A DNA stretch of 64,000 bases from NCBI RefSeq assembly GCF_000565175.1, contig NZ_CP006681.1:868001-932000 (forward strand). The letters run 5' to 3'. A program made the position numbers and the translations under genes. This stretch comes from Spiroplasma culicicola AES-1. GTDB taxonomy: Bacteria; Bacillota_I; Bacilli_A; Mycoplasmatales; Mycoplasmataceae. Below the pieces are notes generated by a model. It saw only the letters and a list, made by a program, of their open reading frames with translations. It was not told where the DNA came from and did no database searches. Positions 4,691 to 41,106 of the stretch are shown piece after piece (position 1 is the stretch's first letter; every line of letters starts with the position of its first letter).

Positions 4691-5887
4691 TTAAATATTT
4701 TTAAGTTCATTTTTATTAAAATAATTACTTCCTATCATTGAGGAAATTAATAAGATTGGTACCATATAACAAATAATCAAAAAACCACTTAAGATTAAAT
4801 TAACAATGGTTGCCAAATTATATTTTCTAGTATTAAAAATTATAAAACTAAGTGATAAGCCAATAATAAGTAACGATAATCCAATTGCCATAATAGTATA
4901 AAAAACAAAAATTGAATCATACATTTTTAAATTTTCATCAATGAATAATAAATTTCCATTAATAAAAATTATTTTAATTAAATATGCAATTGCTATTAAA
5001 GCTGCACATATTTTAATTAATTCTAAAACTAGTTCAAATATGGTTAATCTTTGAAAAAATTTTGGTTTATTTTCATAAATTTTAAATTGGCGATTAACAA
5101 TATAATTTGATACTTTTAACCACATATATTGAACACTACTAATTAATAATAAACAGCCAATTGCTCCCCATAAAACCATTTGATTACCATGTGCAACATT
5201 TCAATTAAAGAAAAAATAAGGAGCAGCTAACAATTCTACTGTAACAAAATCTTCATTAATCCAAGTGGGTGCTTTTGAAAAATCAAGATTTTCATTGACA
5301 AAATATTCTAAGCCAAGTTGAGACATAGTAATCATTCTAAGCAATACAAATAAAACATAAAATAAGGGATATCATCACCCAATTAATAAATTTTTTTTAT
5401 ATCAATTATTTTCATTAATATGTTGTTTCTTAACAATAACTATAAAAAATATTAAACTAAAAGCAAAAGTATATAAATGAGTGTTACAAGTAATAAATCA
5501 TTTTAAAAAAGTATCGTAATCATTTGAGTAAACATTTAATGGATTTTTATAGATATCTTTTTCTGAAATAACTCCTACTAAGGCTACTCAAAATAAAGCC
5601 ATTGTTAATGTCATATAACTTAAAAAATAAATTCAAGCTCTAGCATTGGGTTTTCAAACTCCTCATTTGCCATCTAATGCTACAAATATAAAGAAAATAT
5701 AAAACATTAAGTTAGTTTGAACTGTTCAAAAAGAAAAGTTTGCAAAAAATTTATTGATACTATCAAATATACGATATCTAGGAGCTGGATCAATTTGTGA
5801 GACATACTCTGACAATATTAAAAATAGTGTAAAGTACACAAAAAATAGAGTCCATCACATTCTCCTTATAATTATTTTATTCATCAT
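4691..5887 (-). CDS. Polytopic membrane protein, Pr6Pr-like
   Basis: The 398-residue product is strongly hydrophobic, with about nine or ten predicted membrane segments. The N-terminal half contains WTVQTNLMFYIFF and a later hydrophobic W/Y-rich segment, which recall the Pr6Pr family of membrane proteins described in mollicutes; the function of that family is unknown. Many Trp residues are encoded by UGA, so the gene is fragmented under the standard code. ATG-ATG at 5887/5884 follows AGGTGA. A downstream ATG at 5860 directly abuts AAGGAGA and is less likely. The upstream promoter spacer is almost entirely a run of 16 A. Confidence 0.7.
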
Positions 5888-5907
5888 TTCATTCACCTAA
5901 TACATTA

Positions 5908-5935
5908 ATTTTAGGTTTTTTTTTTTTTTTTGCAA
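5908..5935 (-). promoter_or_regulatory. Promoter with poly-A spacer
   Basis: On the minus strand, TTGCAA (5930-5935) and TAAAAT (5908-5913) are 16 nt apart, and the region between and overlapping them is a run of 16 consecutive A (5916-5931). The AGGTGA ribosome binding site and the ATG at 5887 follow closely. Nothing else in the interval suggests another promoter for the membrane protein gene. Confidence 0.5.
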
Positions 5936-24397: not shown

Positions 24398-24859
24398 ATG
24401 TATTTAGCAACTTGAACAGAAGTTACAAATACAATTATGACTTGTATTTCAACTGTCACAATTGTAAGTGCTTCATTAATTATTCCTTTTTTATTAAGAA
24501 GATTTAATGATAAAAAAATGAGAATGGAAAGTGGCGAAAAATTACTTGCAGATGCCTTTGATAAGTATTTTTCAGATGAATATCCAAAAAATAATTTTGA
24601 ATGATATGTAGCAGAAATAAAATCAATTCAAATAAAGTTTGATATTAACTATGTACACTGCAAAAATTGTAATAAACATTGTAAAACAGATAAATATATG
24701 GAGTTTTTTAAAGGTTATCCAAAAAACATTCCTGAATTAAATAACTTTTATTTTACTACAAGTAGATTTTCATTTAAATTTGAAATGAATGTCTTAATGT
24801 GTTACAAATGTGGAGGAAAACCAAAAGTTAAAAAAATAAAAAAAGAGAAAACTAATTAG
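24398..24859 (+). CDS. Single-pass membrane protein with zinc-ribbon-like cysteines
   Basis: I do not recognise this protein. It has 153 residues: one N-terminal membrane segment (about 12-33, TCISTVTIVSASLIIPFLL), a charged middle and a C-terminal region with HCKNCNKHC (about 88-96) and CYKCGG (about 137-142). These two cysteine pairs could bind zinc. Two UGA codons encode Trp. It begins 28 nt after the Nfu-like gene and probably shares its transcript. GGGTG lies upstream of the ATG. Confidence 0.65.
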
Positions 24860-24873
24860 TTTTCTCTTTTTTT
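24838..24873. terminator. Bidirectional terminator
   Basis: AAAGAGAAAACTAA and its complement form a perfect inverted repeat, with T tracts on both sides. It ends the plus-strand zinc-ribbon gene (overlapping its stop) and would end the minus-strand candidate RNA. Confidence 0.85.
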
Positions 24874-24940
24874 AAACGTTAAATAGTCGGTTCAACGTTT
24901 AGTGTCATAAACTAGATTAATCTAATTTATTTTCCCGACT
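24838..24940 (-). ncRNA. Candidate small structured RNA with its own promoter and terminator
   Basis: On the minus strand, TTGATT (24970-24975), an 18-nt spacer of G-T16-G and TATAGT (24946-24951) predict a start near 24940. The RNA would begin AGTCGGG and fold with ACCGACT (24894-24900) into a closing stem. Two inner hairpins would form: TAGAT/ATCTA and GTTTA/TAAAC with a TGACAC-containing loop. A single-stranded AU stretch then leads to the terminator hairpin at 24841-24870. No open reading frame of note lies inside. It matches no RNA family I recognise. Confidence 0.45.
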
Positions 24941-24945
24941 TCTTG

Positions 24946-24975
24946 ACTATACAAAAAAAAAAAAAAAACAATCAA
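24946..24975 (-). promoter_or_regulatory. Promoter with T16 spacer for the candidate RNA
   Basis: TTGATT and TATAGT on the minus strand are separated by 18 nt that are G, sixteen T, G (plus-strand A run 24953-24968). No gene start lies within 1 kb downstream on this strand, so the only product is the short RNA ending at 24838. Confidence 0.45.
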
Positions 24976-24987
24976 GTGTTTTTTTAA

Positions 24988-25023
24988 GAAAAATAATCAT
25001 TTTTTCAAAAAAATGATTATTTA
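24988..25023 (-). terminator. Terminator after sufB
   Basis: AAATAATCATTTTTT and its complement with a 1-2 nt loop follow the sufB stop and end in T on the minus strand. Confidence 0.75.
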
Positions 25024-25024
25024 A

Positions 25025-26437
25025 TTATCCTACAGAACCTTCCATATCCATTCTAATCAATTGGTTTAATTCTACAGCATATTCTAATGGTAATTCTTTT
25101 GTAAATGGTTCTAAGAAGCCCATAACAATTAATTCTAATGCTTGTTGTTCATCAATTCCACGACTCATTAGATAAAATAATTGCTCTTCACTAACTTTCG
25201 AAACAGTTGCTTCATGTTCAATTTGACTTTGATTATTATGTACTTTATTTTGAGGAATAGTATCTGAATGTGATTGGTTATCTAAAATCAAAGTATCACA
25301 TTCAACTCTTGCTTTTGAATTAATTGCATCTGGTCCAATATATGCCAATCCTCGATAATTGGCAGTTCCCCCTTGAAAAGTAATTGATTTTGAAATGATT
25401 TTTGATTTAGTTTCTTTTCCCAAATGAATCATTTTACTTCCAGCATCTTGATAAACACCTTTTTTGGCAACTGCAATTGAGATAGTATCTCCTTGTGCTC
25501 GATCACCTTTTAAAATACAACTTGGATACTTCATATTAATTTTTGAACCAATATTGCCATCAACTCATTCCATTCTTCCATCTTCTTCAACAAGACTTCT
25601 TTTTGTAACTAAGTTTAAAACATTATCACTTCAATTTTGTACAGTTGTATATCTTACATGACTTCTTTTCCCAACATAAATTTCAACAATTGCTGCATGT
25701 AAATTATTTTTTGAATATACAGGAGCAGTACATCCTTCAATGTAATGTAATTCTGCATCATCTTCAACAATAATTAGAGTTCTTTCAAATTGTCCTGATT
25801 GTTGATAATTAATTCTAAAGTAAGCTTGTAAAGGCATTTCTACTTTAACACCTTTAGGAACATAAATAAAAGTTCCCCCTGATCAAACAGCACTATTTAA
25901 AGCAGCATATTTATTATCGTCATTATCAACAATTGATGCAAAGTATTTTTTAAATAGTTCAGGATATTTTTTTAATGCAGTATCACAATCTGTAAAAATT
26001 ACTCCTTGATCTGAAATCTGAGTTTGCAATTGTTCATAAACTGGAGTTGCATCTCATTGAGCATTAATTCCTACAAAGAAGTTTTTTTCAGCTTCAGGAA
26101 TTCCTAAACGATCAAATGTTTTTCTAATATTTTCTGGTACTTCATCTCAAGATGATGCAATACTATCTGTTCCTCTTGTATAGTAATAATAATCTTGAAA
26201 ATCCAAGAAATTCAAATCTGGTCCAAAACTTGGTTGAGGTCTATCATTAAATTTTTTTAAAGAATCAAGTCTAAAATTCAACATTCATTCTGGTTCTTCT
26301 TTAATTGCAGAAATTTGACGAATTGTTTCTTCTGTTAAACCTTTAGGTACTTTATAACTTGAAACTTCTCCTTCGTTAAACCCATATTTATAGGTACTTA
26401 TTTCTTTAATTTCTTCTTCTTGTTTTAACTTTTTCAT
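25025..26437 (-). CDS. sufB: Fe-S cluster assembly scaffold SufB
   Basis: SufB is the scaffold subunit of the SufBCD complex on which Fe-S clusters are built. The 470-residue length is standard. Motifs include [39 protein letters not shown] (with the conserved Cys) and [20 protein letters not shown] at the C-terminus, shared with SufD. Many UGA codons are read as Trp. Its ATG overlaps the sufU stop (TAATG). It is last in the sufC-D-S-U-B order usual for Firmicutes. Confidence 0.96.
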
Positions 26438-39144: not shown

Positions 39145-39807
39145 TTATTTTTTAGTTAACTCCTCAATTTTATCAAGATCAATTTGTCCCTCAAAAGTTC
39201 CATTATCTCTAACAGCTGTTCCAACATGAATATAATTAGATATTGTTTTACATTTATCAAAATTTGATAATTTAACTCCCCCACCAATTAAGATTTTAGT
39301 GTTTAAGTTAAGATTTTTTAAACGTTCTAAGATTTCAAAACCTTTTTCAATATCATTTCCCCCAGAAGTCAAAACACAATCAACATTTAAATCATTTAAT
39401 TTTTTGTATTCAGTTACAAAATCTTCAACGCAATCAAATGCTTTATGAAAAGTTATTTGTAAATGTCCTTTTAATGCAATTACTTGTTTTAAAAATTCAA
39501 TATCAATTGTATTATCTTGATTTAAAATACCATAAACAATACCATTTGCTTTTGTGGTTTTAATGAATTCAATATCTTTTAAAATTTGTGCTTTTTCTTC
39601 AGGATTTGAATAAAAATCTTTATGAGTATGTCGCACAATTACATTTACAGGAATTTGTGAAATTTCACAAACATCTTTAATTGTTTGATAATCTGGAGTA
39701 TAACCTCCAAATTCAAGTTTGTCACATAATTCAATGCGTGAAGCTTGAGTTTTATTAATTGCAATTGCGTCTTCAACATTTTTGCCAATTACTTCTAAAA
39801 AAATCAC
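39145..39807 (-). CDS. cutC: CutC family protein
   Basis: CutC is a TIM-barrel family named from copper homeostasis; its biochemical role is not firmly established. The 220-residue product has RIELCDKLEFGGYTPD, FHKAFD, VLTSGG and GGGVK, all family hallmarks. The start is GTG overlapping the metK stop by one nucleotide (TAGTG). No UGA occurs. Confidence 0.85.
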   Translation of the reverse strand: MIFLEVIGKNVEDAIAINKTQASRIELCDKLEFGGYTPDYQTIKDVCEISQIPVNVIVRHTHKDFYSNPEEKAQILKDIEFIKTTKANGIVYGILNQDNTIDIEFLKQVIALKGHLQITFHKAFDCVEDFVTEYKKLNDLNVDCVLTSGGNDIEKGFEILERLKNLNLNTKILIGGGVKLSNFDKCKTISNYIHVGTAVRDNGTFEGQIDLDKIEELTKK

Positions 39808-40940
39808 TATAAATATTTCTCCAATTCTCTTACTTTATCTAATTTTTCTCAGCTAAATTCTGATTTCCCAAAGTGTCCATATTTTGCAGTTCTAAAGAAA
39901 ATTGGTTTTCTTAAATCTAATTTCTCTAAAATACTTGCAACTTTAAAGTCAAAGTTTTCTTTCAATGCTTTTTGTAAAACATCCATTGGTACTTTATTAG
40001 TTCCAAATGCTTCAATAAAAATTGAAACTGGCTCTGCCATACCAATTGCATAACTTACTTGAATTTCAATTTGATCGGCAAGTCCTGCTGCTACCATATT
40101 TTTAGCAGCATAACGACACATATATGCCGCACTTCTATCCACTTTTGTTGCGTCTTTTCCAGAGAAAGCTCCCCCACCATGACGAGCATAACCTCCGTAA
40201 GTATCAACAATAATTTTTCTTCCAGTTAAACCAACATCACCAAGTGGTCCCCCAATTACAAATTTACCTGTAGGATTAATTAAAACTTTAAAATCTGTAT
40301 TTAATCCATGTCTTTTAGCAACAACGTCCATGATGTTTTTCTTAATAAATGTTTCAAATTCTGTTTTGTTATAATCTTCATCATGTTGAATTGACATTAA
40401 AATTGTAGCAATGGTTGGATTTTTCATATTTGTATAATCCATTGTAACTTGAGATTTCATATCTGGTTGAGCATATTTAAATGCCCCTGCTTTTCTTAAT
40501 TTACTTGCTAAATGCACTAAATCGTGAGCAATTTGAATTGAATAAGGCATATAAGTATTTGTTTCATTATTTGCATAACCAAACATGATTCCTTGATCTC
40601 CAGCTCCCAATTCTGCACCATCAACTCCCATAGCAATATCTGGTGATTGTTCTTTTAATTTAACTAAAACTTCACAAGTATTTGCATCAATTCCTGTAGC
40701 AGCATTATTGTATCTTACTTTTGCTAAAATCCTTCTAACTTGTTGTTCATAATCCACTTTAGCAATGGTTGTAATTTCTCCTGAAACTATTACTAAATCT
40801 TTTGTTGCCATAGTTTCACAAGCTACTCTAGAATTGGGATCTTGTTCTAAACAAGCATCTAAAATAGCATCAGAAATTTGATCACATAATTTATCGGGAT
40901 GTCCTTCTGAAACTGATTCGCTTGTAAAATATCTTTTCAT
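39807..40940 (-). CDS. metK: S-adenosylmethionine synthetase
   Basis: MetK makes SAM from methionine and ATP. The 377-residue product has the ATP-binding SVSEGHPDKLCDQISDAI, GAGDQGIMFGYA and the P-loop-like GGGAFSGKDATKVDRS. The final 14 residues come after a UGA read as Trp. The gene follows a SAM-I riboswitch, so expression should fall when SAM is plentiful. It is first in a metK-cutC-trmFO-hypothetical operon. Confidence 0.97.
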
Positions 40941-40996: not shown

Positions 40997-41012
40997 ACTA
41001 ATAAGCATAGCG

Positions 41013-41106
41013 TCTTATTGATGGTTTCCCCCTAATTTAAGCACCTAACTAAATAGGTTGCTACTACTTCAATGAGTTTTTTCTCTCAGTAGTTCTTAAT
41101 AAGATT
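41013..41106 (-). promoter_or_regulatory. SAM-I (S-box) riboswitch
   Basis: On the minus strand the aptamer reads P1 CTTATTAAGA, an ACTACTGAG hairpin, the core TGAAGTAGTAGCAACC, then GGTGCTTAAATT and the P4 hairpin, and closes with AATAAG. The GCAACC...GGTGC pair and the closing stem are diagnostic of S-box elements. A hairpin terminator follows at 40974-40996. The AATAAG of P1 can also pair with a downstream CTTATT, providing a competing structure. Confidence 0.88.

Follow-up and report, generated by a model that had tools for sequence, protein, structure and literature searches.

In Spiroplasma culicicola AES-1, a promoter with 16 consecutive thymidines (T16) in its spacer probably makes an RNA of about 100 nucleotides (nt) that is found in no relative. 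Our preferred reading, to which we assign a probability of roughly 0.52, is an orphan homopolymer-spacer promoter that would make a short, species-private noncoding transcript without a demonstrated role. Most likely, the transcript has no conserved role. Judged from their sequence context, the T16 tracts form a genome-wide promoter set in this species and in several others of the genus. The site lies in a 64,000-nt stretch of Mollicute DNA (here, the window), which uses genetic code 4. The host genome (G000; 1,175,131 bp) was compared with 19 other genomes of the genus.

Locus layout and the terminator in relatives

The site lies between sufB and a converging gene for a 153-amino-acid (aa) protein.

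25025..26437, minus strand: sufB, the upstream gene (Pfam SUFBD_core, 9e-81; start MKKLKQ placed after relatives)
24986..25022, minus strand: terminator-like A+T-rich hairpin of sufB, AAATAATCATTTTTT/AAAAAATGATTATTT, with a T tail (read from the sequence)
24837..24874, both strands: bidirectional terminator hairpin of 17 pairs with a T tail, overlapping the 3' end of the 153-aa gene (hairpin scan)
24398..24859, plus strand: converging, genus-conserved 153-aa gene, without a Pfam family

sufB is present in all 20 genomes of the genus, and its product is 82 to 88% identical across 19 of them; the 153-aa gene occurs in 16 of the 19 other members. The 153-aa protein has a hydrophobic N-terminal segment and two CxxC motifs, and its gene lies near sufB in most of the genus. 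In the host, the 3' end of this plus-strand gene falls within the terminator hairpin (24874-24837), and its transcription converges on the minus-strand unit.

In five relatives (G012, G014, G016, G017, and G019), the stop codons of sufB and the 153-aa gene face each other, with a terminator and little else between them. Compared with these five, the host has about 150 bp extra, which hold the sufB hairpin, the T16 promoter, and two hairpins described below (P2 and P3). Such a stretch of about 150 bp, with a putative promoter and hairpins between the two genes, is found in this species only. The preliminary description of the site had counted an intrinsic terminator about 100 nt downstream of the start among the marks of an RNA gene. 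A hairpin with a T tail is indeed present, but because the five relatives have a terminator at this place without the RNA, it serves the 153-aa gene and is no argument for an RNA gene. Several other relatives carry a different gene between sufB and the 153-aa gene, which indicates gene turnover at the locus.

The probable promoter and the T16 class in the host genome

The promoter-like elements, all on the minus strand, are as follows.

24975-24970, minus strand: −35-like TTGATT (consensus scan)
24952..24969, minus strand: 18-nt spacer G-T16-G (G 24969, T16 24968-24953, G 24952; from the sequence)
24951-24946, minus strand: −10-like TATAGT, one base past T16, the commonest offset of the tract class
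24938..24940, minus strand: predicted transcription start, A24940 or G24939 (from Mollicute −10-to-start spacing; PMC5138195)

The letters of these elements are as the preliminary description gave them, and they belong to a genome-wide class of homopolymer-spacer promoters. TTGATT and TATAGT together give 9 of 12 consensus matches at a spacer of 18 nt; 9/12 matches occur 47 times in 6 kb versus 38 expected, and a single match is weak by itself. The T16-spacer promoter is credible because it is a member of the genome-wide T16 class. Mollicute starts lie 5 to 7 nt past the −10 box, usually 6, with G or A preferred (PMC5138195), and the predicted start therefore falls between A24940 and T24938. 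The earlier proposal that the RNA begins exactly at a closing stem is thus plausible from this spacing, as a prediction of the start position.

T-runs in the window have lengths of 6 (192 runs), 7 (106), 8 (21), and 9 (1) and then of 16 (2), with none between. The host genome contains about 50 tracts of T15 to T20, with a peak at 16-17, a lower bound that combines pattern searches with stretches read in context, since the end constraint of the pattern drops some tracts. No T-runs of 11 to 14 were found in it by pattern searches. Exact T16 runs number 256 in the 20 genomes of the genus (forward and reverse columns summed), while exact T12 occurs once; four of the 20 genomes have no exact T16 run. 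Overall, the T-runs are bimodal, with short ones of up to about 9 and then those of 15 to 20, peaking at 16-17, and the reversed-pattern control is uninformative for the length counts of both the host and the 20 genomes because the patterns are nearly symmetric. T-runs of at least 14 followed by TATAAT within 10 nt are far commoner than the reversed pattern (overlapping matches counted), and their distribution is patchy by species. In one promoter, T16-ATCAACTATAAT, the length of 16 is retained in G001, G004, and G010, as taken from a single assembly per species.

Among 46 long host tracts, a −10-like hexamer lies exactly 1 nt past the tract in 15, versus about three at each other position, and TTG occurs within 8 nt before the tract in 26, versus 6 in a control interval. 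Both elements accompany 17 of the 46 tracts, versus about 1.4 by chance (3.1% of random positions). All but one of these 17 two-element tracts (16/17) sit at most 280 nt ahead of an open reading frame (ORF), the candidate site being the sole exception. The genes behind the host tracts encode lipoproteins with typical signal sequences and components of the phosphotransferase system (PTS). The opposite polarity, with A16 as the spacer, is found for 7 of the 46.

Several individual tracts and their surroundings may be noted. The second T16 of the window (5916-5931, plus strand) lies upstream of the minus-strand ORF 4691-5896, toward which it reads as A16 in a spacer-like arrangement (TTGC-A16-CC-TAAAAT). 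The tmRNA gene is preceded by a T20 tract (L107, 156-634; G000:95505-95983), with TATAAT further downstream. The L115 tract is followed by a long leader and then by an ORF with an aquaporin-like NPA motif. Strong leader folds stand behind T17 tracts at L149 (lipoprotein; z, −5.6) and at the PTS-like L137 and L113 (z, −5.0 and −3.3); these leaders are possible antiterminator or other leader elements. Long-tract loci in the host include L108, L111, L112, L142, and L148-L154. The motif AGTCGGGA, which precedes ATG in L007 and L110, was considered as a mark of translation start and dropped, as it is found inside coding sequence too.

Nearly half of the long T tracts (21 of 46) directly follow a strong hairpin (e.g., L112, L113, L151, and L152). 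A tract right behind a hairpin may therefore double as a terminator tail and as the spacer of the next promoter. Not every tract of the class is a promoter, and those preceded by hairpins may serve as terminator tails. Directly ahead of the T16 at the candidate site is a weak A/T hairpin, AAAAAAACA-CTTGAT-TGTTTTTTT (−4.5 kcal/mol). These observations, together with the gene turnover at the locus, speak for an untranscribed site, at which T16 would be the U-tail of a second sufB terminator or a remnant of the promoter of a gene since lost, and in which the hairpins would be chance AT-rich inverted repeats. However, sufB already has its T-tailed hairpin at 24986-25022, and the combination of TTG and a −10 hexamer at the class offsets is unlikely by chance and otherwise marks genes. 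We regard an untranscribed site as unlikely.

Predicted fold of the candidate RNA

On the minus strand, 73 nt lie between TATAGT and the terminator hairpin. The longest frame in the candidate RNA has 9 codons (ATGACACTAAACGTTGAACCGACTATTTAA), which bears out the earlier statement that no coding sequence fits. A short-ORF reading was rejected, since it would comprise just this frame, with no visible ribosome site. Three stems can be drawn.

24885..24940, minus strand: P1, the AGTCGG/CCGACT stem (enforced fold, −14.4 kcal/mol, one inner hairpin)
24907..24930, minus strand: P2, a 10-bp hairpin, ATAAATTAGA-TTAA-TCTAGTTTAT (common to both folds)
24873..24901, minus strand: P3, an 11-bp hairpin, TAAACGTTGAA/TTTAACGTTTA, pairing 24901-24891 with 24883-24873, loop CCGACTA (minimum-energy fold)

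AGTCGG (24940-24935) is exactly complementary to CCGACT (24890-24885), so that the closing stem proposed earlier can be drawn as described; enforcing it leaves one inner hairpin, not the two of the proposed three-way junction, which we abandon. The unconstrained best fold (−15.4 kcal/mol) keeps P2 and forms P3 with the 7-nt loop CCGACUA. Because CCGACUA lies in this loop, the 5' AGUCGG could pair with the loop or compete with P3.

P3 and the nested P1 are mutually exclusive, and their energies are close (−14.4 versus −15.4 kcal/mol). Such a pair would suit a cis-acting leader or attenuator, in which a P1/P3 switch sets read-through of the terminator, and the product of read-through would be antisense to the 153-aa gene. 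However, the arms of the terminator lie outside both P1 and P3, so that the switch would have no visible output; the minus strand carries no gene further downstream, and no Rfam family matches. We regard a cis-acting leader as very improbable.

Compared with shuffled sequences, the full 108 nt have a z of −5.8, mostly because of the terminator. For the 73-nt core alone, z is −2.8, and 24 of 2,000 shuffles are equally good; 4% of segments of this length taken at random from the window fold as well, and the fold is thus unexceptional for the genome. In a test picked post hoc, 0.3% of shuffles have a GC-rich 6-nt complement to their first 14 nt.

Searches for homologues

Rfam covariance models, riboswitches included, gave no family at either gathering or permissive thresholds, with A/T hairpins of the terminator as the best subthreshold matches; the preliminary description had likewise recognized no family. 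Elsewhere in the window, the same collection identifies a SAM riboswitch (RF00162, 49.4 bits; 41012-41105, minus strand) just upstream of ORF 39807-40940, which resembles the S-adenosylmethionine synthetase gene metK, an ordinary pairing of riboswitch and gene.

BLASTN searches with 138-nt and 71-nt queries in 40 and 60 relatives found no copy of the RNA; matches elsewhere comprised only the T-run, the terminator, and an AT palindrome. Plasmid and phage collections gave no meaningful match. The covariance search of relatives that had been proposed as a check was run with two models (P2 plus P3 and P1 plus P2) in 40 genomes and found no homologue, and the best foreign matches, on inspection, resembled terminators or were coding sequence, and they lacked the P1 motif. 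Exact-motif scans of genome and viral collections gave chance matches only, in unrelated and mostly higher-GC DNA, and a search for related loci with the 153-aa neighbor as the query gave no result. The collections searched thus contain no homologue of the candidate RNA with which its stems could be compared for compensatory changes.

These results bear on whether the site encodes a true species-specific regulatory small RNA, which would pair with mRNAs through the P3 loop CCGACUA or, when P3 forms, through the free 5' GUCGGGAAAA, and whose expression T16 would switch between cells. Promoter and terminator elements are present and there is no ORF; the membership of the promoter class, the structured core, and the rarity of the GC-rich complement in shuffles also point in this direction. 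Against it stand the absence of homologues and hence of covariation, an unexceptional structure matched by 4% of random segments, and a terminator that is explained by the 153-aa gene, and the pairing target is only hypothetical. A regulatory small RNA of this kind is in our view unlikely, and the trans-acting role proposed earlier is not supported by the evidence.

Proposed course of transcription and comparison with known systems

In the preferred reading of an orphan promoter, RNA polymerase would bind TTGATT and TATAGT across the G-T16-G spacer and start at A24940 or G24939. The 73-nt stretch would be transcribed and would form P2 together with one of the alternatives P1 and P3. Transcription would stop where the 153-aa gene has its bidirectional terminator, and the product would be a noncoding RNA some 100 nt long. 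The promoter, either a remnant or a recent arrival with no gene of its own, would yield a species-private or incidental transcript. A change in the number of T's would change the −35/−10 spacing and with it the output, as in the vlp promoters of Mycoplasma hyorhinis. Known Mycoplasma promoters make it reasonable to suppose that slippage could tune expression in this way (PMC2268961).

Insertions and deletions in the −35/−10 spacer switch the vlp, maa2, and vmm genes in mycoplasmas, whereas the T tract just before the −10 box of the Mycoplasma agalactiae vpma genes is reported not to cause variation (PMC2268961, PMC10502178). The site shares with vlp of M. hyorhinis a long homopolymer between −35 and −10 that adjoins the −10 box (PMC2268961, PMC10502178), but no lipoprotein gene follows, as there is no ORF. 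Both the mycoplasma promoters with homopolymer or repeat spacers and the host tracts often stand ahead of lipoprotein genes. The host tracts differ in that they number about 50 genome-wide, are nearly fixed in length, and precede PTS genes too, and in that the candidate site lacks a gene. In a literature search that covered mainly open-access papers, we found no description of a class of T16 promoters for Spiroplasma.

Short RNA signals arise in Mesoplasma florum from start sites that lie just ahead of terminators (PMC7745072). The candidate resembles these orphan starts in having a promoter directly before a terminator, a short predicted RNA, and no ORF. There, however, the transcripts were measured, with signals of about 50 to 75 nt, whereas here they are predicted, and the relevant passages of that report mention no T16 tract (PMC7745072). 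Transcriptional noise has been stressed for AT-rich genomes (PMC5138195). The candidate is like spurious noncoding transcription in Mollicutes (PMC5138195) in its unconserved promoter, its genome of 28% GC, and its RNA without a homologue; it is unlike it in that its promoter is one of a T16 class of restricted length and not a chance match in AT-rich DNA.

Implications

An ambitious extension would have the site encode a phase-variable regulatory RNA, switched by slippage through T16, as part of a regulon of 16-bp homopolymer promoters that spans the genome and covers lipoproteins and PTS uptake. We consider this quite improbable; if true, a single switch that differs from cell to cell could control other genes by way of RNA pairing.

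The RNA may be incidental. The part worth pursuing is the length-restricted class of 16- to 17-nt tracts, many of them promoter spacers, and the focus of the preliminary description on the spacer was in this respect well placed. If the tracts do not slip, the question is why homopolymers lie near 16, with almost none of about 10 to 14. If they do slip, genes for surface proteins and sugar uptake in spiroplasmas would form a phase-variable set that could be read directly from sequencing reads.
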